Positions 995 through 26,230 of a stretch of 29,615 bases of DNA are shown here, one piece after another (within the stretch, counting starts at the first letter, position 1; each line of letters opens with the position of its first letter). Source of the DNA: a virus; the IMG/VR virus record IMGVR_UViG_3300042987_003139, positions 1-29,615 of that record; one strand, 5' to 3'. Position numbers and translations under genes: made by a program. Under the pieces are notes generated by a model. That model was not told where the DNA came from. It ran no database searches and saw only the letters and a program-made list of their open reading frames with translations.

Positions 995-2631
995 ATAAGA
1001 AAATCCTCAGCTGTTTCTATTTTTTGTGTACGAATATTTTCACAAGCTATTTTATTATTTAAATGAGCTTCTAAAACCTCAACAACTTTTATATAATCAA
1101 GAGTAGTTATCATACCGTTTCGTGCAACAATTCTACTAGATAAATCTCTAATGAGATTTTGTACCAATGAGGTTCTAATAAAATCTGGTTCATTTAGCAC
1201 ATTTATGCATATATATTCTATAAATTCTTTTGGATTAAGATTTGGTGGAACTTTAATATTGGTGTGATTTGTGGAAGATATTTTATCGTCTGTCCAAGAT
1301 TTTTTATTAGTAATATCTATACTTTGAAAACATTCATCCCAAACAGCATAAACATTATCCCATGTGTATTTATCTACACACGTTTCTCTGGCTTTGCGTC
1401 CCCAGGTTATTTTTTCTTCATCTGTCAAGTTATTAAAAAAATCATATATAAAATTTGTTATAAATAAATTATCCGGATATGCTCTATCAGCATTTGTTTC
1501 TAATTCTCGAAACATTCTCTGTACAGGTATTTTAACTCCATGTAAATTTTCTACTATTTCTGACATGGCACTATAATCAACACTAGCCATCGGAACTCCA
1601 CACGATGCTGCTTCTAGTTGTGGCATACCAAAACCTTCGGCTATAGCATTTTGTAAAAATACATCAAATAGATTATATATTTTATTTAGATCATTAGTAC
1701 CAAGACTTGCTGCTACACTAGGAAAAGTAGCTGATATATTTCTACATTTAGGACAGGCAGATATAGAGTTTCTGAATTTAGAAGGAAACCAATGTTTACA
1801 ATTTCTACAAACATAAGTAAAATATACTTTATCTAATAAATTATATTCTAATAGAATAGCTGGAAAATCCCAACCATTTTCTTCTGGATAGGATGTATGA
1901 CAGTATAGGAAAGATTTATTATACTGATCTAAATTATTATCTTCTTTTAATCTATTTAGATATTTTCTAAAAATTAACATATTATCAGCAAATAGTTTGC
2001 GTTTTTGATTACGCATAACACATCCAACTATATTATAGTCATTACCAAATATGTCTATTTTGTGTTGTCTTTTATTTTCTATAGGAAAAAATTCATTAGG
2101 ATTTATTCCAGCATTTGCTGTTTTAGGGAAAAGATTAATGTTTTTTCCACAAGCCTCGGATAGAACCTTTTTAGCCCATTCAGTATAAGGTATCACAACG
2201 TCCGCATTACAAAACGTATGTAACCATTCTATTTTTTGCGGAGCAGAATCGACCATTGGCATTTGTACCCAAGAGAAATATTTTCTATATGGACTAGTAT
2301 CCTGGTAGGCATACATCCAGTAGTCTGTCCACGTACAAACAATATGCGGTTTAAAGTGCGCACATACTCTGTTAAACCTCCAGCCGCCAAATTGGTTTGT
2401 TCCATTGGACTTGTAGGCTTCGTACCTTGAATCTGTATGGTCTACAGCATTTGGATAAAATGTCCAAGGTATATTTTGAATTTCTTGGTTATTTATAGTC
2501 GCGTAGCAACCAAGTTCTGCTACTTCATATTTTCCAGAATTGTGGAGTCTAGATAAAATTTCTTTAGCATATATTCCGTATCCACTAGCTAAAAAACTAG
2601 CATCTGTGGCTACCAAAATTCTTTTTTTCAT
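979..2631 (-). CDS. GT-B glycosyltransferase (GT4-like) with inserted zinc ribbon
   Basis: This 550-residue protein has the layout of a two-Rossmann GT-B glycosyltransferase that transfers a sugar from a nucleotide-sugar donor. The N-terminal domain begins with a strand (RILVATDASF) and a Gly-rich loop (SGYGIYAKEIL). The donor-binding domain carries the GT4 E-x7-E signature at E332 to E340 (EGFGMPQLEAASCGVP). Between residues 275 and 296 two CxxC pairs (C275/C278 and C293/C296) form a rubredoxin-like zinc ribbon inside the donor domain, which is not part of the usual GT4 core. The last 110 residues look like a helical tail. It could modify phage DNA, virion proteins or host surface sugars. 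The acceptor cannot be read from sequence. Confidence 0.9.
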   Translation of the reverse strand: MKKRILVATDASFLASGYGIYAKEILSRLHNSGKYEVAELGCYATINNQEIQNIPWTFYPNAVDHTDSRYEAYKSNGTNQFGGWRFNRVCAHFKPHIVCTWTDYWMYAYQDTSPYRKYFSWVQMPMVDSAPQKIEWLHTFCNADVVIPYTEWAKKVLSEACGKNINLFPKTANAGINPNEFFPIENKRQHKIDIFGNDYNIVGCVMRNQKRKLFADNMLIFRKYLNRLKEDNNLDQYNKSFLYCHTSYPEENGWDFPAILLEYNLLDKVYFTYVCRNCKHWFPSKFRNSISACPKCRNISATFPSVAASLGTNDLNKIYNLFDVFLQNAIAEGFGMPQLEAASCGVPMASVDYSAMSEIVENLHGVKIPVQRMFRELETNADRAYPDNLFITNFIYDFFNNLTDEEKITWGRKARETCVDKYTWDNVYAVWDECFQSIDITNKKSWTDDKISSTNHTNIKVPPNLNPKEFIEYICINVLNEPDFIRTSLVQNLIRDLSSRIVARNGMITTLDYIKVVEVLEAHLNNKIACENIRTQKIETAEDFLICHNK

Positions 2632-2652
2632 AAAATGCGCCTAACTGAAGTA

Positions 2653-2692
2653 AGTGGCAGGATACCCACATCTCTATGAGTATCCTGCCGCT
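2653..2692 (-). terminator. Hairpin downstream of ssb, possible terminator or processing site
   Basis: A perfect 10-bp inverted repeat, GGCAGGATAC at 2656-2665 and GTATCCTGCC at 2680-2689, has a 14-nt loop. It extends outward by two more pairs across one mismatch. It sits about 20 bases after the ssb stop and 25 bases before the glycosyltransferase start. On the minus-strand transcript it is followed by a U-containing but not U-rich stretch, so termination may be weak or the hairpin may protect the ssb mRNA end. Confidence 0.55.
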
Positions 2693-2711
2693 ACGAACCA
2701 CACTGTTTATA

Positions 2712-3089
2712 TCAGAATGCTACTGTCTCTTCCGCTGAAGCATCCGACTTTTCTGATTTCTTAGTTCTTAGGATTTTAGCAAAATTATTTACTCTAACCT
2801 TAAGAGTACTATGCTTTACTCCATCCTTTTCCCAACTATCATTACGAAGACTGCCTTCTACCATAACAAGGTCGCCCTTCTTAAATGCAGACCCTATAGC
2901 ATCGGCTCCGCTGTCCCAGGCTTCGCACTGGATAAACGACGTTACCTTATCCTGAGTTCCATTAGCTCGTGTGAATTCACGAGATGTTGCGATAGTAAAA
3001 TTAACTACAGATGTTTGCTTGTCTCCAATACTTACAACGCGTAATTCTGGATCACGAGCAAGGTTACCCCTCAACATTACAATATTCAT
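2712..3089 (-). CDS. ssb: Single-stranded DNA-binding protein
   Basis: This is a 125-residue bacterial-type SSB with one OB fold: MNIVMLRGNLARDPEL at the start, then FTIATSREF, TSFIQCEAWD, FKKGDLVMVEGSL and the closing strand TLKVRVNNFAKI. It coats ssDNA at the replication fork. A longer in-frame ATG exists at 3149, but its 20 extra residues would be encoded by promoter and leader DNA. The internal ATG at 3089 has an excellent Shine-Dalgarno AAGGAGA at 3101-3095 with 5-nt spacing and matches the family start. The tail is acidic but ends EETVAF rather than exactly the canonical DDDIPF-type tip. Its own promoter lies upstream and a hairpin downstream, so it is probably expressed as an extra, abundant transcript. 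Confidence 0.95.
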   Translation of the reverse strand: MNIVMLRGNLARDPELRVVSIGDKQTSVVNFTIATSREFTRANGTQDKVTSFIQCEAWDSGADAIGSAFKKGDLVMVEGSLRNDSWEKDGVKHSTLKVRVNNFAKILRTKKSEKSDASAEETVAF

Positions 3090-3131
3090 AAAATTCTCCT
3101 TAAAAATAAAAACCAATGTACCAACGTACAC

Positions 3132-3162
3132 AGTATAGTAAGATCCCATCAGGATGTGTCAA
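3132..3162 (-). promoter_or_regulatory. Sigma70-like promoter for ssb
   Basis: On the minus strand a perfect -35 TTGACA (3162-3157) is followed by TACTAT (3140-3135, 16-bp spacer), overlapping TATACT (3137-3132, 19-bp spacer). The -35 overlaps the TGA stop of the polymerase C-terminal half. A leader of about 40 nt with a strong Shine-Dalgarno then leads to the ssb ATG. Confidence 0.65.
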
Positions 3163-4778
3163 GTTTTGGCAATATATGCCTTTTCTACTATTAATCCATC
3201 CCCGGTTCTTGATCTGGTGCCAACAACTATAATAATATTACCATCAAATAGTATATTTTTATATGTTTTGTATTGCTCAGGAAAAAATATAACACTATCG
3301 ATGGAACCAGTTTGATCTGTTAAATTAACAAAACACATATCTGCACCTTTTAATTTACCAGTTTTAGTCTTGGTGACATTAATAAAAGCAATTTCTCCAC
3401 CGATAATAATATTATCTTTTGTTGAATTATTTTTAAAATCTCTACAAGTACTGTTTGTCATACTAATATCGTACATATCAATTTTTGAACACGAAATAGA
3501 GCAGCCCAATGCTGCGTCTTCGGCATCGGCAATCCATTCGGGACTATCCTCTACAGAATATGGTGGATTATTCAATAGGTGCTTAGAGTCCTCTATAATT
3601 TTTTTTCGATTCTTGTTGGATTTGCCATTAATCAATAGATAATCTAAAGCATCATCCAATTTAGTAAAATTATCAATATGACCAACTATAAACTCTGCTT
3701 CTTTTTTTGTTAGTTCTGATGCTATATTATATTCAAACAACATAGAACTGCGAGTTTTGGGAATAAAACTAGTAGCTCCACTTTCTATCAAAGCCTTTGC
3801 TGCTGTGCTGTTAATGTTTAATAGTATTTGAAATAATAGTCTTAACCAATTAATTTTATCTAAATCTATATGTTTTGTGTCTATAATAGAAATCAATTTA
3901 TTAAATACAGAATCTCCAACTCCTTTAATATCTGTTAGGCCGAAATATATCTTATCATTTTTTAGAATAAAATATCTATTCAAGTTTCTAATATCTGGAG
4001 TATGGATTGTTATATCCATTTCATTGGCATTTTGTACGAGAGCTTTAATTTCATCTTGTGGATCGATTTTATCCTTAGCAAATCTCAAATATGCCGCAAA
4101 AAATATTTTCGGGAAGTGTGCTTTAGCATACGCCGATAAATAAGCGTTCATAGCATAACTAACAGCATGACTTTTGTTAAATGAGTATCTTTGACTTTTT
4201 TCTATCCATCCGAAGATTTGTTCTGCTTCGTACTCATTCACAATCTTTTTTGCTTTACACCCATCAATAAATTTTGATTTAACAGCAGCCATTTTATCGG
4301 CTAGTTTTTTACCAATAGCTTTTCTTAATTCGTCAGCTTGCTGCAAATCGAATCCGGCAATATCCTTGGCAATCTCCATCGCCTGTTCCTGATATATTAA
4401 CTCACCTAAAGTGGGAGACAATATGGGTTCTAATGCACTATGGAAATAATTAATACTTTCTTGTGCATTTTTTCTATCTATATAATGATTTGTTACGCTT
4501 TTCCCGTCACGAATAGCCTCTAAGCATCCTGGTCTCAAAATACTAATAAGAGCAGAAAGCTGTTCCATATTTTCTGGTTTAAGTTTTTTTGCAATAGACC
4601 TACCTAATCTTGACTCTAATTGGAAAACCCCCTTTGTGTTTCCGTCACCAATTAGATCCCATGTTTTGTGACACTCTAGATTAATATTTTCAACATTAGG
4701 ATCAAATGAAATTTCTTTACGACCAGCTTCGTCAGAAAAGTCAAAAGAACAACCGCAAGAATACTTAAATTGTTTCAT
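3159..4778 (-). CDS. dnaE: DNA polymerase III alpha subunit, C-terminal half (fingers to OB)
   Basis: This 539-residue protein matches only the second part of bacterial DnaE. After about 45 residues it enters the fingers domain (KGVFQLESRLGRSIAKKL, then LISILRPG), continuing with YQEQAMEIA, ELRKAIGKK and SFNKSHAVSYA. The DIKGVGDS helix-hairpin-helix region follows, and an OB fold sits at about residues 440-539 (GGEIAFINVTKTKTGKLKG, then LTDQTGSIDSVIFFPEQY). It lacks PHP and palm, which are encoded by the gene at 5658-7532, and lacks an obvious tau-binding C-terminus. The N-terminal extension is new and contains CGC and a later CH. No intein splicing motifs are seen at the break, so the halves presumably assemble non-covalently. 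It overlaps the exonuclease gene by an ATGA junction. Confidence 0.92.
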   Translation of the reverse strand: MKQFKYSCGCSFDFSDEAGRKEISFDPNVENINLECHKTWDLIGDGNTKGVFQLESRLGRSIAKKLKPENMEQLSALISILRPGCLEAIRDGKSVTNHYIDRKNAQESINYFHSALEPILSPTLGELIYQEQAMEIAKDIAGFDLQQADELRKAIGKKLADKMAAVKSKFIDGCKAKKIVNEYEAEQIFGWIEKSQRYSFNKSHAVSYAMNAYLSAYAKAHFPKIFFAAYLRFAKDKIDPQDEIKALVQNANEMDITIHTPDIRNLNRYFILKNDKIYFGLTDIKGVGDSVFNKLISIIDTKHIDLDKINWLRLLFQILLNINSTAAKALIESGATSFIPKTRSSMLFEYNIASELTKKEAEFIVGHIDNFTKLDDALDYLLINGKSNKNRKKIIEDSKHLLNNPPYSVEDSPEWIADAEDAALGCSISCSKIDMYDISMTNSTCRDFKNNSTKDNIIIGGEIAFINVTKTKTGKLKGADMCFVNLTDQTGSIDSVIFFPEQYKTYKNILFDGNIIIVVGTRSRTGDGLIVEKAYIAKT

Positions 4779-5479
4779 ACTAAAGTAGCTTCATTCCTAA
4801 AAGCATTTTTAAATTTAATTTTTTCCGATAGCGTTCTATGAAGTTTCAAGAAACGTATCATAAGATTTGCTGTATCCTTAACATCTTTTAAAGCATCGTG
4901 AGCATTTGTTTTGTCTATACCAAAATACTCTCTAATTGTGTCAAGACTCAAACTTTTTACATCGTTGTTACTTTCAAACCAATAATAAACAAGATTAATA
5001 ACATCTAGAACATCTCTAGGATAAAACAAATCTGTTTTACCTTCCTTGTTAATATTCTTGTATTTATTGCTTAATCTATCAACAATAACAAGATCAAATC
5101 TATTTATGTTGTAGCCAGCAGCAATAGGAGCACTAAATTGACTTTTTTTAGTTGTTCTTGTATGATATTTATCTAAATAGTCAACAAACATTGTCCATGC
5201 TTGATTTTGTTTTGGATACTGTTTCCAAGCATTGAGTATATCGTCTTTTGAACACGATCTAACTTTAGCATGAAAATCTAATATATCGGTTGTATATACA
5301 TAGTTTTCATTTTCTTCAATAACCTCTGGTTTAAAATTCATATTGAATTCTGATCCTTTAATAATTTCTAAATTAATAGGATCAACCATAATAGCAGCTA
5401 TCTGGACCGGACTACATACCCTTGGATCGGATCCGTCCGTCTCCATATCAAAAACACAAATTTTATTTTTATTGATCAT
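4775..5479 (-). CDS. DnaQ-like 3'-5' exonuclease (proofreading)
   Basis: This 234-residue DEDD-family exonuclease shows ExoI at residues 8-14 (CVFDMET, with D11 and E13), ExoII in GYNINRFDLVIVDRL, and ExoIII in NAHDALKDVKDTANLM, where the His five residues before Asp marks the DEDDh type. Length and motif order fit the proofreading epsilon subunit of DNA polymerase III. It is encoded between the two halves of the polymerase gene, which strongly suggests it edits for that polymerase. The ATG at 5479-5477 overlaps the end of the 61-residue gene, and the stop overlaps the start of the DnaE C-terminal half, implying coupled translation of the polymerase parts. Confidence 0.93.
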   Translation of the reverse strand: MINKNKICVFDMETDGSDPRVCSPVQIAAIMVDPINLEIIKGSEFNMNFKPEVIEENENYVYTTDILDFHAKVRSCSKDDILNAWKQYPKQNQAWTMFVDYLDKYHTRTTKKSQFSAPIAAGYNINRFDLVIVDRLSNKYKNINKEGKTDLFYPRDVLDVINLVYYWFESNNDVKSLSLDTIREYFGIDKTNAHDALKDVKDTANLMIRFLKLHRTLSEKIKFKNAFRNEATLV

Positions 5480-5654
5480 CTACTACCACTTCGTCTAAAG
5501 GTTTTACCTGAATTTTTTGTTGGGCATTATCAACACCACAAGCGTTGATACTTCTGCAACAACTTACTCTTTTTTCTTCTGTCTTTTTGTATTTAACTCC
5601 ATTCAAAGTAAATTCATCATTAACAGCTAGATCTTTAAATTGTTTTGTAGCCAT
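5469..5654 (-). CDS. Small conserved-looking protein between polymerase halves
   Basis: This 61-residue protein starts 3 bases after the stop of the polymerase N-terminal half and overlaps the exonuclease start. It reads as a small all-beta unit (FKDLAVNDEFTLNGVKYKKTEE) followed by a VSCC pair and another Cys, then a strand with KIQVKPLDEVVV. I recognise it only as a type of short beta-strand protein often found in phages and cannot assign a function. Its position inside the polymerase gene set makes a replisome accessory role possible but unproven. Confidence 0.8.
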   Translation of the reverse strand: MATKQFKDLAVNDEFTLNGVKYKKTEEKRVSCCRSINACGVDNAQQKIQVKPLDEVVVDDQ

Positions 5655-5657
5655 AAA

Positions 5658-7532
5658 TCATATTCCTTGTTTAAGTAAATTTGCTATACTCATAACCTTA
5701 TCCAACAAGGCTATACCTAGTATATCAAATTTTATTACCCCAATAGCCTCTAAATCTTGCATTTCCATTCCCGCTATTGATTGATCGTTTTTTCCATCAT
5801 AAACCATCGGACATATTTCATGAAGAGGAATAGAACTCATCGCTATTCCAGCGGCGTGTTTTGACTGATTTGTTTTTGTTCCTTCTAATCTAATAGCCTG
5901 TTCAAATCTTTTGGCAAGCGGACCCTGTAATTCATTGTTTTCGTCTACATAACACCACTCTTTGAGTTGCTCAGAATGGTTTTCTAACGCCCAACGAATA
6001 ATAGATGCTTCTCCAGTTTCTTCTTTCATTTCTTGTAATTCATCCGAAATTTTGGCTTCGTCAGGAATATGCTTTGTGATTTTATTCATTTCTTCGAATG
6101 TAATATTACCATATACTCTTAATACATCCTTAAGAGCACCTCTGCCTTTCATAGTATTAAATGTAATCATTTGAGAAACGTTTTCTTGACCATATTTGTT
6201 TTTGATATAAGCAATAACATCTTCGCGTTTTAAAATTGGTACGTCAACATCAATATCTGGCAAAGATACCCTATCTTTTGTGTTACGACCAGCAGAATAA
6301 AATCTTTCAAAAATTAAATTATATGACAACGGATCAATGCTTGTTATACCAATAAGATATGAAACTAAACACCCTGCTGCTGAACCTCGTCCTGGCCCAG
6401 CCAACCAATTATTTTGTTTAACAAAATTTACAATGTCTTGAACTATCAAAAAGTAACTACTTAAACCAGCCCCTTGTAAAACCTCTAATTCTTGCTTAAT
6501 CCTTTCAACATATGATGGTTGTTGATCCACAGGAACTTTTGGTGCAATTTTTTCTCTCCAGCCTTTTCTGCATAATTCTCTTAAATATTCATCAGGATTC
6601 AAATTATTTGGACATGAATAAGTAGGCAGATTTGGTTTGCTTAAAATATCATAATCTTCTATCATAGATGCTACATAATTTGTATTATCGATTTCTTCTT
6701 GCGTATGAAGCTCTTTCATTTCATCATAAGATAATATATGATAATTATCTGACAAAAAGAAACACCCTAATGGAACATCTTCATTATTGCTGATTTTTCT
6801 ACTTATTTCTGGAAAGGTTGTTTTTAAATTATTACATAATAAGACTCTTTGATCTACAGCATCTTCTTTTCTGCAATAATGTGCATCTGGAGTGCAAATA
6901 ACTTTTGTATCTGTTGACTTACCCAAATATCTTATGCAGTCTGTTAGCTGTGTTTGAATGGTAAGATTTTTATGATCCATTAATTGGGCTTCTAAAAAGA
7001 CATTTTCTTTACCAAAGATTTTATGAATTTTTTCAATAGTCTCTTTGCCACGCTCTTTCCAATCTTGTCTTATCGTTGTATAGTTATCTATTAGGGCATC
7101 TGCTAGTGTTGATCCTAAGTGACCAATAATAGCAATTAAATTACCATCTATAAATTTAGATAATGTTTTAAGATCTAGTCTTGGCTTATGATAAAAGTGC
7201 TCGGCCCTATTGGATTCTGAAACTAACTTGATAAGCTGTTTCCATCCTTTATAATTCTTTGCCAAAACGATAAAATGGCTTAGATCTTTATTTTCTTTAG
7301 TTTTATTTTTAGGATCATCAGCACAGATATATAATTCACACCCTAGAATGGGTTTGATCCCAGCTTTTTTCATCTCGCTATAAAATTTCACAGATCCGGC
7401 TATATTTCCGTGGTCTGTTAATGCGCAATTTTTTACACCTATTTCTTTACAACGCTCTGCAATTTGAGAGGGTTTGCTTAGACCATCCAATAAAGAATAA
7501 GTAGAGTGACAATGTAGAACAGAATAACTCAT
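5658..7532 (-). CDS. dnaE: DNA polymerase III alpha subunit, N-terminal half (PHP and palm)
   Basis: This 624-residue protein covers the first part of bacterial DnaE. The PHP domain is intact, with HCHSTYS at 7-13, TDHGN, GCELY and TPDAHY. Next come the palm and thumb with GPGRGSAAGCLVSYLIGIT and the two catalytic aspartates D426 and D428 in PDIDVDV. The third catalytic aspartate, D603, lies in IKFDILG. The protein stops 21 residues later, exactly where the fingers domain should begin. So all catalytic carboxylates are here, and primer-template and clamp contacts are mostly on the partner at 3159-4778. The break is unlike the cyanobacterial split-intein site, which lies at the FNKSH motif and is intact in the partner. 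The ATG overlaps the upstream nuclease stop. Confidence 0.93.
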   Translation of the reverse strand: MSYSVLHCHSTYSLLDGLSKPSQIAERCKEIGVKNCALTDHGNIAGSVKFYSEMKKAGIKPILGCELYICADDPKNKTKENKDLSHFIVLAKNYKGWKQLIKLVSESNRAEHFYHKPRLDLKTLSKFIDGNLIAIIGHLGSTLADALIDNYTTIRQDWKERGKETIEKIHKIFGKENVFLEAQLMDHKNLTIQTQLTDCIRYLGKSTDTKVICTPDAHYCRKEDAVDQRVLLCNNLKTTFPEISRKISNNEDVPLGCFFLSDNYHILSYDEMKELHTQEEIDNTNYVASMIEDYDILSKPNLPTYSCPNNLNPDEYLRELCRKGWREKIAPKVPVDQQPSYVERIKQELEVLQGAGLSSYFLIVQDIVNFVKQNNWLAGPGRGSAAGCLVSYLIGITSIDPLSYNLIFERFYSAGRNTKDRVSLPDIDVDVPILKREDVIAYIKNKYGQENVSQMITFNTMKGRGALKDVLRVYGNITFEEMNKITKHIPDEAKISDELQEMKEETGEASIIRWALENHSEQLKEWCYVDENNELQGPLAKRFEQAIRLEGTKTNQSKHAAGIAMSSIPLHEICPMVYDGKNDQSIAGMEMQDLEAIGVIKFDILGIALLDKVMSIANLLKQGI

Positions 7533-8527
7533 TCAACGCTTCCAGGTGCTTTGTACTTACCAACAGTATAGCCTGTGGATGTGTATTCGTCAACCACAGA
7601 GTTTATACCTTTTAGTTCGATATCATGTTTTATCTGTTCGCACTTGGTCATGTAATTACCTTTTGAGCAAACCTGACCGTCTCTGTATTCAAGTATTGGT
7701 AATATGTTAGAATTTTCAAAAGTTGTTTTACCAAAGTGGCACAACTTATTGCATTTCCATGATTTATTAAGAATGGGTTTTTTACACTTTTTAATAGTTT
7801 CAAATTTCTTTCTAAGAATATCTTCAGTATCTGGTAAGTCAGTTTTGTCAAAACATATACTGAATGCCCCACCATCATTAATAAAATTGATCGTAGCCAT
7901 TATATGATCATATTCAGGATACAACTTGCTCATTGCATAATGATATATTTTTAATTGTGGATCTTTATATAATTTGGCTAAAGTTTTTTCTTGCCCAGTT
8001 GCCCAATCTAATCTTCTTCCAGTTTTCCAATCCACCATTTCTAGTGTGGAATCATTAACCTTAGTAATAAGATCAATGGTTCCTTTTATGGCCAAATTTC
8101 CCTCTAATATTCCATCTTTAGTTTCATATTTATAGTAAGCCCATGGCTTATCGATCATAATATCAAAATGTTGCTCTGGTTGGACTATTTCTCTGGAGCG
8201 TGGATCAAACGCCCCATTGTGGTCTGTTATCGCTTTATGCACCCAGGCGTGGCAATCTTTATAATCTTTGATTTCCCACTCGTGGTGTTTAAACTGGGCG
8301 ATATAGTATTTGTATACTTTTTCAATTATAGTATTCAAATTATAAGATTTGACATTAATTGGTCCTAAAATATCATCAATATATTCTGGTTCATTATTTT
8401 GTTGTGATAATTTTATTCCGGCTAAAATTTCTAATACTTTATGACAAATAGTTCCTTTGTCAGCCTTTTTGTTTGATGGACTACGCCAGCCAAGCACATA
8501 CTCCAAAAAATATTGCTGTTCACACAT
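7529..8527 (-). CDS. Cas4/RecB-like PD-(D/E)XK nuclease with Fe-S cysteines
   Basis: This protein (332 residues from the ATG) shows a RecB/AddB/Cas4-type nuclease core: KGTIDLI, then EMVDWKTGRR (the acid and Lys of the PD-(D/E)XK motif), then QLKIY (the QxxxY motif). A Cys at the start of the first helix (CEQQYFLEYVLGW) and Cys residues near the C-terminus (WKCNKLC and a later VCSKG) fit the Cas4/AddB [4Fe-4S] arrangement. It likely resects DNA ends in phage recombination or host DNA breakdown. The ATG used here truncates the family's N-terminus: about 15 further codons upstream are open and match the conserved leader, so the true start is probably a non-ATG codon near 8572-8567. Confidence 0.88.
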   Translation of the reverse strand: MCEQQYFLEYVLGWRSPSNKKADKGTICHKVLEILAGIKLSQQNNEPEYIDDILGPINVKSYNLNTIIEKVYKYYIAQFKHHEWEIKDYKDCHAWVHKAITDHNGAFDPRSREIVQPEQHFDIMIDKPWAYYKYETKDGILEGNLAIKGTIDLITKVNDSTLEMVDWKTGRRLDWATGQEKTLAKLYKDPQLKIYHYAMSKLYPEYDHIMATINFINDGGAFSICFDKTDLPDTEDILRKKFETIKKCKKPILNKSWKCNKLCHFGKTTFENSNILPILEYRDGQVCSKGNYMTKCEQIKHDIELKGINSVVDEYTSTGYTVGKYKAPGSVE

Positions 8528-8565
8528 TGAATGTGTGCCATATGAACTGCTTCTAATATATGTAA

Positions 8566-8583
8566 TAATTATGATAGCACCTT
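8566..8583 (-). promoter_or_regulatory. Shine-Dalgarno with AUA/AUU start candidates for the nuclease
   Basis: On the minus strand AAGGTG (8583-8578) is followed by in-frame ATA (8572-8570, 5-nt spacing) and ATT (8569-8567, 8-nt spacing; also 8566-8564). An in-frame TAA at 8587-8585 closes the frame just upstream, and no ATG, GTG, TTG or CTG lies between it and the ATG at 8527. That ATG has no recognisable Shine-Dalgarno. Confidence 0.5.
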
Positions 8584-9186
8584 TTTATCTTTTAGAAAAT
8601 TATATATGATTTGATTTTGTTCGTCAATAGAAATATTACAATTATCAATGACAAGATCAAAATTATTCTCATTATAATTTATTGGATCTAATGCTGTTTC
8701 ACTAGCGTGTGTTGAGTCGAAAGGATTTCTTTTTAATTTAATTACTAATCCACCAGCTTTTTTGACAACATCAACCTCATTAGGAAATCTACAATCGGCT
8801 ATGATAGCTAATGGCGGCTGTTCTAAATTAATTTTATTTATTGTTGCACCGGCCCAAACATCGTGTTTCATTTTTCTGAATAAATCAGTTCCAACAAATT
8901 GCATAACTTCTCTGGCCGTTAATCGCTGGCCTTCCCACACAATGTCTGTAAGAGTATTTTTGTCGATATCCTCTCCATAACATTGTTCATATGTTAGTCC
9001 TAATATATTCATGCAAATATCCTTTTTTAAAGGGTCTGCAAAATTATATATTTTAGCAATATTAACATTATTTATTGTTTCAAATAGTCTTTTATATAGT
9101 TGATTATTGAATTTGGTTTTTACATATTCCGAACACGTTGTTTTTCCAGACTGTTTGCGTCCTGCAAATGCTATTATCTTGGTCAT
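8569..9186 (-). CDS. Deoxynucleoside monophosphate kinase
   Basis: This 205-residue P-loop kinase has its Walker A at residues 8-17 (AGRKQSGKTT) and a later IIADCRFPNEVDVVKKAGG segment typical of phage dNMP kinases related to T4 gene 1. FADPLKK after the first helix and GTDLFRKMKHDVWAG in the middle also fit that family. It phosphorylates dNMPs to dNDPs with ATP, feeding DNA synthesis alongside the ribonucleotide reductase and dCMP deaminase in this window. The ATG overlaps the primase stop. The stop lies within the probable leader of the nuclease gene that follows. Confidence 0.92.
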   Translation of the reverse strand: MTKIIAFAGRKQSGKTTCSEYVKTKFNNQLYKRLFETINNVNIAKIYNFADPLKKDICMNILGLTYEQCYGEDIDKNTLTDIVWEGQRLTAREVMQFVGTDLFRKMKHDVWAGATINKINLEQPPLAIIADCRFPNEVDVVKKAGGLVIKLKRNPFDSTHASETALDPINYNENNFDLVIDNCNISIDEQNQIIYNFLKDKKVLS

Positions 9187-10337
9187 ATAATGCTTTCTAT
9201 ATAATCATATATCTGAGTTTTGATTTCTTCTGGAGTCATTTCTCCAACATCATTTTTTGTTATTTGTGGAATAAATACTCTATAAGTATTTTGACACTTA
9301 CTTTTAATCTGTTCGGATGCTTTCTTGCCAGCATCATCATTATCTGTAAGTATGATAAGATTCATACAGCCAGAAGAATCTAATAAAATCTTTTGTCTAT
9401 CACTTAGCGAAGAACCAAATATAGCAACACTATTGTGTATTCCGTTTTCTTCTAAACGCCATACGTTGCCAGGACTTTCAACTATTATTGCTGTGTGTGT
9501 TTTAAGTATATGGTCTTTAGCAAACCAAAAGTTGTATAAATAATTTTGACTCTTGAAATCTGCGCTATGTTTCCATTTTGAGAATATCCATCGCTTATCC
9601 TCTTCTGGACAATCTTTACTATTATCATGATAAGATGAACACTTTGCACATTTTTCAAAAATACTTCGCCCAGTACATCCTACCATATACTTATAATCGT
9701 TGTCATATATAGGAACAACAACTCTATTATACATAGGTTTATCAGGATTCGAACATAATCCAACATCATATTTATTTAAAATATCTGATGTATAATTTCT
9801 ATCAATATAATATTGTGCGGGTATTTGGATGCTTCTAACGATTTGATGTCGGCTGATTTTTTGTACAACATCTTGTTCTGGTTTATTAATATAATTAACT
9901 AGATTAGCAAAGTTCTTTTTATCTCTATCAACTCTAGATATTTTGATCTTACTAAAGTCCTTTTTTAAGAACTTGGTAGCATAATCTAGAGCTTCTTGAA
10001 AAGAACATCCTTGATCGCCATCTTTTGTCCAACCATATTTTCTATTAGAAATGATTCCTCTAATAAAACCAATTATAGATGGCTTAAAAATCTTTTCACA
10101 ATTATGTGTGCGACATACCCAGTTGCCTCTATAATTTTCGCCTTCTGGATATATATTTAATGCTCCAAAGTTATCTCCATCATGAATGGGACAACTCATG
10201 TTTATTAACTTATAGTTCATTTTATATTCAAGCTCAAAACTATCTAGCAATTGTTCTATGTTATCACATAGTTCATCGCAGACTATTTTCAGCTTATCTT
10301 GATCAAACGAACGGTATTTCTTCATCGTTGTGTTCAT
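9183..10337 (-). CDS. TOPRIM DNA primase with extra zinc ribbon
   Basis: This is a 384-residue DnaG/T7-type primase. The N-terminal zinc-binding domain uses C49, H52, C75 and C80 (CPIH, then CRTHNC). The TOPRIM core contains E287 in AIIVESPGNVWRLEE and the D332-x-D334 pair in TDNDDAG. A further cluster, C230, C233 and C243 in EKCAKCSSYHDNSKDCP, sits inside the catalytic half and is not part of the standard DnaG core. It would lay down RNA primers for the polymerase here, working with the DnaB helicase encoded just upstream and overlapping by about 35 bases. I chose the ATG at 10337; a TTG one codon upstream and an ATG at 10325 are alternatives. There is no separate helicase domain. Confidence 0.9.
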   Translation of the reverse strand: MNTTMKKYRSFDQDKLKIVCDELCDNIEQLLDSFELEYKMNYKLINMSCPIHDGDNFGALNIYPEGENYRGNWVCRTHNCEKIFKPSIIGFIRGIISNRKYGWTKDGDQGCSFQEALDYATKFLKKDFSKIKISRVDRDKKNFANLVNYINKPEQDVVQKISRHQIVRSIQIPAQYYIDRNYTSDILNKYDVGLCSNPDKPMYNRVVVPIYDNDYKYMVGCTGRSIFEKCAKCSSYHDNSKDCPEEDKRWIFSKWKHSADFKSQNYLYNFWFAKDHILKTHTAIIVESPGNVWRLEENGIHNSVAIFGSSLSDRQKILLDSSGCMNLIILTDNDDAGKKASEQIKSKCQNTYRVFIPQITKNDVGEMTPEEIKTQIYDYIESII

Positions 10338-23404: not shown

Positions 23405-26230
23405 TTATAAAATATTGATTTTGCCAACAAGCTGAGATTTTGATTGATTTTCGTCGAAACCACAACCAAGATGAATATTCGGAGTATTATTGGCAATATC
23501 AGTCTGTTGCGTGTTCGTTTGTTGAATACTAACAATATTAAAATTAGTGTCGAGTGTTGGAATTCCTTCGCTTTCGCCAGGATTTATTTCTTCATACCCA
23601 AAATCTACTAAATTTTTTAAAGTTAATTGGCTTAGTACTCTAGTTTCTCCAGGATTTGGAGCTGAACCAACCATTAATTCATTTAATACGCCAGGATAAT
23701 TGGGTTTTTCTGTTGATGGTGAGAAATATCTAGATTGATTTTCCCAATGAGAGTTAACAGTGCCTGATCCTCCAGTTATTTCTAATGGTATATTAATTGG
23801 TTGATATAAATAGCTAGATAATCCTGTGATACTATTATATGCCATTTGTGTTTGCTCATATGCTGTTCCATTTAAAAATCCACAGGATGTATTATAAGTA
23901 TTTTGTGGACATATTGTTGGCGATGGTGGATATATATTCCAAAACACCCCAACTCCTAAAGCGTGTAATAACTCATGACTAATAATATCTATCCAATTAG
24001 AAATATTATATCTATTTAGATAAAATAAATTAATATATACTGAATAACTAATAGTATTAATTTTTATAGGATTAGAATTACTAAGACTTACATAAGAATT
24101 TGGTGCTGCTTTAGCAACGTATAACGCAGATTCTGCATACTCAAAATTAATAGAGTCAGCAATAGCTCCTTGAAATTGTTCGTAGCCACTAATTCCTCTT
24201 ATTCCGCTTATAACATCATCTTTATATTTAATAAATTTACTTAATCTATTAACTGCTGAGAATATATATTCTTCCCAAGGAGACATTGACAATATTTGAT
24301 TATTATTTAGTGCAGTGTTGAGCGCGCTACTAATGCTGTCAACATCAAATAAATATGTCAAAGACTCTGGTGGCGGTCCTTCTGGCATAATCATACCGCT
24401 TAGTGTTCCGGGACTTGTACCAATAGCATTAATAGCGTAAACTTTGAATCTATAATTGTTACCATTGATTAGACCAGATACATGAATAGAATTTGTCGTT
24501 GCTGCTACAGTCGTAAGTTCTGTCCAATCACCTAAAGGAAATCCTGTGGAAGCGATCTCAATTTTATATGAAGTTATTGGAGAGCCGTTATCATTAGCTG
24601 GTGGAGTCCAATATACTATAGCTGCTGCATTTAAAGCTTGTGCTGATACAGAGACTGGTTGTTCAGGAGCTGTTGGTTGTGGAATAATTGTGCTGCTTGG
24701 TAAGCTGTATGGTCCTACACCAATAATATTTGTGGCAGCTACTCTAAATTTATAAGAAGAGCCATTAACTAGTCCAGATATTAGCGTAGAGGTTCCAGAC
24801 ACAGGAACGCCATAGTTTGTCCATGTTGTTCCATTATTTGATGATATTTGTATTCTATAATCAACAATAGGTAATCCCCCAGTATTAGTAGGAGTACTCC
24901 ACGATAAATTTACCGATTGATTTAGTGGGGTTCCTTGAATATTTGTTGGAGGCGCAGGTGGCGTAGATCCAGGAGTTACAGATACTGATAGCTTACTAAA
25001 TTGTCCAGCACCAACAATATTTACAGCAGCAACTCTAAAAGAATAAGATTGTCCTGGTGTTAAATTACTGATGGTGGCCGTGGTATTAGTATTATATCCA
25101 TCATTATACTGTATCCAACTAGTTCCGTCGTAATATTGAATAATATAATCTAGTAACAATACATTTAAACCGCCAGTATTTGTTGGTGGTGTCCAAGCTA
25201 TTGTAACAGAACCTTCACCCAAGCCCGTAATTGCCGGTTGGGACGGAACATCTGGCGGAGATATTGGTCTTGCTAGAGCTTTATTACTCCATACACTACT
25301 ACCTCCCGGAACATTATATGTAGTAGATCCCATAACATTATAAGCTCTAATTGTAAAGGCATAAAATAAACCATCTTTTAAGTTTGTTACTCTATATAAA
25401 TTAGTATTATTAGTATTGGCAACCCTTCTGGTTGTAAGATCAAAAGGAACAGAATTTTGTGGTGTTGGAATATATGCCTGGGCTTCTGCTAAGGTTTTAA
25501 ATCCTGCGCATCTTATGCCATATTCGACAATTGCTTTTCCGCCATTGTTTGTTGGAGGAATCCATGACAAATCTACCGATTGATTGTTTCCTAAACGAAT
25601 TGCTCTAAGATTCGTTGGAGCAGATGGTGGGGCAAATACTAATACTGTCTGTGGTGCGCTTGATTCTCCCCAACCACTTCCATTTTTTGCAGATACTCTA
25701 CAAAGATATGTAGTTCCATTAACTAAACCTGTCAATATGTAAGAAAATGTTGTTGAAGTTATATCTGGTGTTGTTGTCCATGATGTTCCGCCATTAGACG
25801 AATATTCTATCCTGTATGCTGAAATATTAGTAGATCCAACGTGGGTTGGCGCCGACCATTTTATGTTGATACTTCCGATATTGTTTGCTGCAACAATATT
25901 GATTGGTGCCGCTGGTGTTGCTGAAAGAGTTTTAACTTGAAGAGTTTTTGAGCTATATGGCCCTATTCCTCTGGTTGGATGAGCAGCTCGTATTCTGAAA
26001 GTATAAAAAAGAGATGGATTTAAGAGTTGTGCTGGATTGCCAACCGCAGTAAAAAAAGCGGTTGTTACTGACATACCATACAATCCGGCAAGTTGCCAAG
26101 AAACACCATTATTGGTGCTGTATTGTAATTCATAATATCCTTTAGTTCCGGGATCTGCTCTTGTCCACGTTAAAGAGAAAGATAGTATACCAGGTAGTAC
26201 TGAAGTAATAGTGGTGACTGGAACGGCCAT
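23405..26230 (-). CDS. Multi-Fn3 virion protein with leishmanolysin-like metallopeptidase
   Basis: This 941-residue protein starts with about six fibronectin type III repeats (roughly 1-103, 104-200, 200-325, 326-424, 425-520, 521-620). Each has the Trp strand and YxxRVxAxN-type motif (for example YSFRVAAVNIVGAG and YKFRVAATNIIGVG). The C-terminal 320 residues carry HELLHALG (H752, E753, H756, G759), SHW with H828 as likely third zinc ligand, and NELM with M853 as Met-turn, the arrangement of M8/leishmanolysin-type metzincins. It is probably a tail or surface protein that binds host glycans or proteins through Fn3 and degrades surface protein. There is no signal peptide. Shine-Dalgarno AAGGAT precedes the ATG. 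Confidence 0.9.
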   Translation of the reverse strand: MAVPVTTITSVLPGILSFSLTWTRADPGTKGYYELQYSTNNGVSWQLAGLYGMSVTTAFFTAVGNPAQLLNPSLFYTFRIRAAHPTRGIGPYSSKTLQVKTLSATPAAPINIVAANNIGSINIKWSAPTHVGSTNISAYRIEYSSNGGTSWTTTPDITSTTFSYILTGLVNGTTYLCRVSAKNGSGWGESSAPQTVLVFAPPSAPTNLRAIRLGNNQSVDLSWIPPTNNGGKAIVEYGIRCAGFKTLAEAQAYIPTPQNSVPFDLTTRRVANTNNTNLYRVTNLKDGLFYAFTIRAYNVMGSTTYNVPGGSSVWSNKALARPISPPDVPSQPAITGLGEGSVTIAWTPPTNTGGLNVLLLDYIIQYYDGTSWIQYNDGYNTNTTATISNLTPGQSYSFRVAAVNIVGAGQFSKLSVSVTPGSTPPAPPTNIQGTPLNQSVNLSWSTPTNTGGLPIVDYRIQISSNNGTTWTNYGVPVSGTSTLISGLVNGSSYKFRVAATNIIGVGPYSLPSSTIIPQPTAPEQPVSVSAQALNAAAIVYWTPPANDNGSPITSYKIEIASTGFPLGDWTELTTVAATTNSIHVSGLINGNNYRFKVYAINAIGTSPGTLSGMIMPEGPPPESLTYLFDVDSISSALNTALNNNQILSMSPWEEYIFSAVNRLSKFIKYKDDVISGIRGISGYEQFQGAIADSINFEYAESALYVAKAAPNSYVSLSNSNPIKINTISYSVYINLFYLNRYNISNWIDIISHELLHALGVGVFWNIYPPSPTICPQNTYNTSCGFLNGTAYEQTQMAYNSITGLSSYLYQPINIPLEITGGSGTVNSHWENQSRYFSPSTEKPNYPGVLNELMVGSAPNPGETRVLSQLTLKNLVDFGYEEINPGESEGIPTLDTNFNIVSIQQTNTQQTDIANNTPNIHLGCGFDENQSKSQLVGKINIL

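Follow-up and report, generated by a model that had tools for sequence, protein, structure and literature searches.

The window analysed here, that is the whole stretch of 29,615 nucleotides comprising positions 1 to 29,615 of the IMG/VR virus record IMGVR_UViG_3300042987_003139, carries on its minus strand, between positions 3159 and 7532, a DNA polymerase III alpha subunit (DnaE) encoded by two separate open reading frames (ORFs). Replication of nearly all bacterial chromosomes depends on family C polymerases, which consist of one chain of approximately 1,100 residues. The two halves are referred to below as DnaE-N and DnaE-C, and in the direction of reading on the minus strand the genes follow each other in the order X, DnaE-N, S, E, DnaE-C and SSB, with the following features:

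7529-8527, minus strand: X, a PD-(D/E)XK (RecB/Cas4-like) nuclease directly upstream of DnaE-N, a conserved operon marker (Pfam; synteny)
5658-7532, minus strand: DnaE-N, 624 residues, PHP and palm (DNA_pol3_alpha) (Pfam, conservation, AlphaFold2, fold match)
6243-6260, minus strand: PDIDVD, with the catalytic residues Asp 426 and Asp 428 of DnaE-N (invariant in 89 of 89 aligned rows)
5715-5732, minus strand: KFDILG, with the third catalytic Asp of DnaE-N, D603 (invariant in the same 89 rows)
5469-5654, minus strand: S, a small protein of 61 residues between DnaE-N and the exonuclease (alignment, PHROG)
4775-5479, minus strand: E, a DnaQ-like 3'-5' exonuclease of 234 residues (RNase_T, phrog_192)
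3159-4778, minus strand: DnaE-C, 539 residues, with a CGCxF N-terminal extension, fingers, HhH and OB (Pfam, AlphaFold2, fold match)
4749-4757, minus strand: CGC motif (C8, G9, C10) near the start of DnaE-C (conservation)
4671-4673, minus strand: C36 of DnaE-C (82 of 82 rows)
2712-3149, minus strand: single-strand binding protein (SSB) downstream of DnaE-C, a conserved operon marker (Pfam; synteny)

S and E overlap by 11 bp, E and DnaE-C by 4 bp, and the SSB probably starts 20 codons further in. The initial annotation, made from the sequence of the window, had described a DnaE in two ORFs at 3159-7532; both ORFs are found there with the domains divided as it had claimed. Its description of the split is exact, whereas it underplayed that the two halves are not adjacent, S and E lying between them.

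Pfam profiles, which it had suggested as a check, place PHP (7e-41) and DNA_pol3_alpha (5e-74, profile positions 1-260 of 260) on DnaE-N and DNA_pol3_finger (2e-43), HHH_6 and OB on DnaE-C; the OB match scores 26.7 bits, slightly below the Pfam cut-off of 27, and the fold comparison confirms this domain. The domain order of family C (PHP, DNA_pol3_alpha, finger, HHH_6, OB) is therefore kept and spread over two ORFs, which in every locus of the clade replace the single polypeptide of DnaE. DnaE-N ends 21 residues after D603 and the fingers are on the other chain, as first proposed. With respect to TIGR00594, the superfamily profile of the polymerase III alpha subunit, DnaE-N covers the profile to about position 572 and DnaE-C takes it up again from about 579; in the numbering of Salmonella DnaE the last residue of DnaE-N corresponds to 576 and DnaE-C restarts at 577, and in seven split representatives the break falls inside residues 572-581. 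The segment SFNKSHAVSYA, in which cyanobacterial DnaE has its split-intein site, runs uninterrupted through DnaE-C, and the break lies elsewhere.

Models calculated with AlphaFold2 from alignments of the relatives, rows of doubtful agreement with their loci being excluded for DnaE-C, confidently predict that each half alone folds as the corresponding part of DnaE, with a predicted local distance difference test (pLDDT) of 92.7 and a predicted template modelling score (pTM) of 0.90 for DnaE-N, and values of 92.1 and 0.84, respectively, for DnaE-C. In comparison with solved structures the model of DnaE-N matches residues 5-639 of Thermus DnaE and 3-576 of the E. coli enzyme (VIA Z 39-42), and that of DnaE-C matches residues 573-1074 of E. 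coli and 639-1125 of Thermus DnaE (VIA Z approximately 22). The modelled halves thus abut in the palm-fingers linker with almost no gap or overlap; DnaE-N ends with the helix that follows the third Asp, and DnaE-C is devoid of the tau-binding C-terminal domain. The first 25 residues of DnaE-C are predicted to form a small β element that bears the CGC motif. This motif is found in 91 of the 97 unique DnaE-C proteins and C36 in every aligned row, and CGC and C36 together may form a metal-binding knuckle.

Two scans of IMG/VR with short patterns yielded at least 160 loci, a number that gives a lower bound for the size of the clade. The order X-N-S-E-C-SSB is present in 126 of the 160 fetched loci, the remaining ones being mostly truncated at contig edges or devoid of a recognisable S. 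Wherever N, E and C were all seen (152 loci) the two halves are separate ORFs, with not a single N-C fusion among them; the distance from N to C is 825-921 bp in 142 of these and longer in the other 10, owing to insertions or an interrupted N. The proteins sampled in this way comprise at least 109 different N and 97 different C sequences. An alignment query of IMG/VR returned at least 569 stretches encoding relatives among the 600 listed, so the group is larger than the part of it sampled here. On the other hand, none of 50,697 phage isolate records contains a close relative (best match to DnaE-N approximately 34% identity), and the genome collection contributed a single locus (L162, RFNS01000104), a contig of a metagenome-assembled genome (MAG) from Lake Lanier that is probably of phage origin and was assigned to a bacterial MAG in binning. 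The search of related contigs called for by the initial annotation thus reveals a conserved arrangement. A sequencing or assembly error at 4778-5658, which it had named as a possible cause of the break, was considered and is ruled out, because the same order recurs in most loci and no fused gene was seen. Nor do related genomes carry one intact dnaE of which the window would hold a decayed copy: at the same locus intact dnaE was found solely in other lineages (L349 and L350), and there not beside a decayed copy.

The catalytic residues D426, D428 and D603 and the GS motif of the palm are invariant in the 89 rows of the DnaE-N alignment, as are H41, E66, H86, H138, D216 and H218 of the PHP metal site and D16; H7 and H9 occur in 77 of these rows, and most of the exceptions are proteins whose start was called further in. 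In the 82 rows of the DnaE-C alignment the residues of FQLESR, YQEQ, GKK and FN.SH are likewise invariant. Values of dN/dS (ratio of nonsynonymous to synonymous substitution rates) calculated according to Nei and Gojobori for close pairs are approximately 0.01-0.06 for N, C and E; judged from these ratios, both halves evolve under strong purifying selection. We further analyzed 24 related records of 112-244 kb, which are not certified to be complete genomes. Each of them contains exactly one PF07733 and one PF17657 domain without a second copy of either, and PolA (PF00476), PolB (PF00136), PolC and domain III of the β clamp were not found in any. Since each record has one palm, one finger domain and neither PolA nor PolB, the split DnaE is the only replicase recognised in it.

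Concerning the two genes in the gap, E matches RNase_T of Pfam (1.3e-8) and phrog_192, a DNA polymerase exonuclease subunit (1e-19); of its 101 unique sequences, 98 have exonuclease motif I and 94 have motif III, and the best match among phage isolates, at 27%, is to Bacteroides phages. S contains an SCC motif (S31, C32 and C33, at least 90% conserved in its alignment); it has weak matches in PHROG to entries of unknown function there and no match among phage isolates. Additional genes are found in the gap of some relatives. In L093 an ORF resembling an HNH homing endonuclease (2130-2813, recognised by eye and without a Pfam match) is located between DnaE-N and S. The inserts between E and DnaE-C of L127 (3596-4579) and L135 (3809-4882) include a DUF1559 prepilin-like protein, adjoined by ORFs for a ThyX-like and a membrane protein. 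The DUF1559 prepilin-like family is typical of Planctomycetota, hinting at a host from this phylum for part of the clade.

Further scans yielded, besides the group of the window (splitA), two other split groups and one intact group. In splitB (approximately 50% identity; L492, L434, L488, L448 and L440) N and C are again separate with E between them; in L492, which is devoid of S, N and E as well as E and C overlap by 4 bp. In splitC (approximately 33% identity; L298, L309, L424 and L425) the operon X-N-...-C-SSB is kept, and the gap of L298 and L309 is occupied by dUTPase, thymidine kinase and small ORFs, no PF00929 exonuclease being present in the 177-kb record of L309. In L349 and L350, X and SSB enclose an intact DnaE of 1,138 and 1,122 residues, respectively, which thus has the same place in the operon, and these loci are flanked on either side by kinase and glycosyltransferase genes, as in the window; L365 is a cut-off intact member of this group. 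A separate lineage split in the same linker is formed by the isolated Rossellomorea phage phiT1 and L262; patterns derived from the single phiT1 sequence gave no match in IMG/VR, and L262 was recovered with an alignment query (60%). About 115 other viral DnaE loci that were fetched are intact single ORFs. In the tree splitA and splitB are joined (100/100) and the intact L349 group is sister to splitC (100/99). Monophyly of all splits, including the phiT1 lineage, is rejected by the approximately unbiased (AU) test (p 2.6e-9), and so is a clade of splitA, splitB and splitC without the intact genes (p 0.0085). The tree together with these tests indicates at least two independent splits within one ten-residue stretch, and in addition either a third split or a re-fusion. 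A split ancestral to the X-DnaE-SSB group and followed by re-fusion in L349, L350 and L365 would account for the operon common to all these lineages and for the CGC start of DnaE-C, which L424 of splitC shares with splitA and splitB. Re-fusion, however, requires a linker of normal length to have been regained with no trace of the extension left in the intact genes, and we regard it as plausible, if somewhat less so than not, against separate splits in splitA/B and splitC; the nesting of the intact genes beside splitC and the rejection of the A+B+C clade are compatible with either history.

Several members of these groups have DnaE genes interrupted in other ways. In L091, L111 and L154 DnaE-N is further divided at GPGRG^SAAG by an apparent true split intein: about 80-100 intein residues are carried by one ORF, a free-standing endonuclease-like ORF follows, and then, on the next ORF, the C part, ending in HN, a layout of the fractured-gene type. 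From this layout, DnaE of these relatives presumably consists of three pieces, two of which would be trans-spliced while DnaE-C stays permanently apart. L154 has in addition an intein at RPG^C of DnaE-C. Continuous inteins are present in L154 and L425. Those of L425 are in both halves (2027-5200 and 7221-9689): the one in N, of the LAGLIDADG type, is inserted at GPGRG^SAAG, and the one in C at FNK^SH, only a few residues away from where cyanobacterial DnaE is split by its intein. The X gene of L162 has a LAGLIDADG intein-like insert, and an endonuclease-like ORF interrupts its DnaE-N before PDIDIDIP. Among other phages, dnaE is interrupted at the catalytic PDID motif in Bacillus phage Jayan (L171) and between PHP and palm in Rhodococcus phage Grayson (L180), and is present in two overlapping frames, unannotated, in Bacillus phage vB_BpsS-140 (L179). 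The HNH-like ORF of L093 may illustrate how the gap between the halves is colonised by mobile endonucleases; such elements may also lie at the origin of the split, as has been proposed for phage gene 43 and nrdA (PMC2988022).

These interruptions bear on the question whether the halves encoded in the window are eventually joined. Split inteins are known from DnaE, and the inteins of L091, L111, L154 and L425 indicate that this gene is also invaded in the relatives, so that ligation of the halves after translation, as in cyanobacterial DnaE, has to be considered. Yet beyond its third catalytic Asp DnaE-N has just 21 residues, corresponding to the native helix end, and DnaE-C starts with the 25-residue CGC stretch, whereas the real inteins in the same gene add some 80-100 residues and an HN before the +1 residue; some members of the clade are without any extension, and neither Pfam nor NCBIfam detects an intein domain at the palm-fingers break, in agreement with the first reading of the window. 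The split intein of the relatives thus serves as an internal control, a true one looking different from this break, and ligation by an intein appears very improbable. Splicing of the messenger RNA, either of a group I or group II intron or with S and E excised together, would equally yield one DnaE, and introns indeed split the DNA polymerase genes of many phages (PMC12363816), with endonuclease ORFs interrupting DnaE of L267 and L162. Against this, a search of window positions 2600-8700 for Rfam introns gave no match even at E values up to 1, the gap genes are conserved and under purifying selection, and the overlaps in L492 leave no space for an intron; splicing is hardly to be expected here.

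There remains the possibility that the polymerase is decaying and the host replicase is used, the halves being pseudogene pieces or kept for another purpose, for instance for the PHP nuclease only. Degradation is frequent among split genes and some phages have no polymerase, but the invariance of the catalytic and finger residues, the low dN/dS of both halves and the persistence of the split state down to approximately 33% identity speak so clearly for function that we give decay scarcely any credence. By far the most probable reading is a non-covalent two-chain DnaE in which the palm-fingers linker is permanently cut and which represents the only recognised replicase. The natural two-piece replicative polymerase postulated at the outset is thus also the best-supported explanation, in view of the conserved split, selection, residues, folds and absence of another polymerase. 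Three points weigh against it. Loose matches to the β-clamp-binding motif occur in 57 of 97 sequences at no single conserved position, and the sequences offer neither a consistent canonical motif nor a recognised β clamp to which processivity could be ascribed. The CGC extension is not essential, as one subclade has lost it. Finally, the joint evolution of two linked genes indicates that both are required and not that their products bind; contact between the chains is an inference.

In the mechanism that we propose for the two-chain enzyme, DnaE-N would supply the PHP nuclease and the full catalytic triad, and DnaE-C the fingers, HhH and OB. Both would be made from a single operon, whose reading frames overlap or abut and in which the gene of the proofreading exonuclease lies between the two, and would then form one active site by non-covalent assembly, with the palm metals on one chain and the fingers on the other, the pair acting as polymerase. 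The CGC extension may hold or orient DnaE-C, and together with S and E it would have a role in the complex. The gap would constitute a free genetic slot, filled with the exonuclease with or without S, or with dUTPase and thymidine kinase. A more far-reaching and rather doubtful version is that the linker is a reusable hinge, cut repeatedly and possibly re-fused, and that the fingers chain gained in CGC an attachment element and the locus a slot for accessory genes, making this a real two-subunit replicase; if true, it would have its own assembly or exchange behaviour, beyond a tolerated break.

It appears that a large group of uncultured phages relies on a replicase with its catalytic metals and its fingers on different proteins. 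The linker represents a natural and repeatedly used division point of DnaE, giving two halves that are predicted to fold confidently and are suited to structural work, and the presence of intact and split orthologues at the same operon position makes a direct comparison possible. For phages of this kind gene callers list "DNA polymerase III alpha" twice, and nothing in such an annotation tells the user that the two genes are both needed. Elsewhere in the window, an ORF of 941 residues (23405-26230) contains repeats of the fibronectin type and, after them, a stretch with HELLHALG that is similar to a zinc metalloprotease; a virion or host-surface protein is a possible identity for its product.

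A split polymerase III alpha is already known from jumbo phages of group 2.2, where a minimal form encoded by distant genes exists beside PolB and the halves are described as an NTP-binding and a Mg2+/DNA-binding half (Iyer et al. 2021, PMC7824862). In both systems a family C polymerase of phages is divided between two proteins; whereas the jumbo-phage enzyme is reduced to the catalytic core, the other polymerase III domains missing, the one described here is full-length, with the full set of domains, encoded in one operon with all three Asp on N, and is the sole polymerase recognised, no PolB being present in the 24 related records. In the literature searched we found neither a full-length two-chain DnaE from one operon as sole polymerase of a large clade nor a split that recurs at one hinge while an intact gene occupies the corresponding locus of relatives, and a survey of polymerase swapping in phages (PMC11348598) does not mention a split PolC in the passages searched. 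A further comparable case is phiT1 (gp20/gp18, PV767480), in which DnaE is in two ORFs divided in the same linker with a small ORF between them (gp19, unrelated to S); its record annotates an "alpha subunit" twice without comment. It differs in belonging to the separate lineage, in a gap without exonuclease and in the absence of the CGC extension. Phage enzymes in two ORFs are also represented by gene 43 (PolB) of Aeromonas phages 25 and 44RR and by nrdA of phage Aeh1, whose pieces form a working enzyme (PMC2988022), but these enzymes belong to other families, their splits go together with homing endonucleases or with an insert that is not translated, and they have been reported for few phages. 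Cyanobacterial DnaE, likewise encoded by two genes, is trans-spliced in the FNKSH region (PMC3919608), whereas the phage genes are divided at a different site and without an intein; in a survey of bacterial polymerase III alpha, fragmented genes were attributed to frameshifts or intein splits (PMC3919608). With bacterial DnaE, as known from the Thermus, E. coli and M. tuberculosis structures, the phage enzyme shares the order of domains, the Asp triad and the fold of each half, and it is distinguished from it by its two chains cut at approximately residue 576, by the absence of the tau-binding domain and by the CGC extension on the fingers chain.

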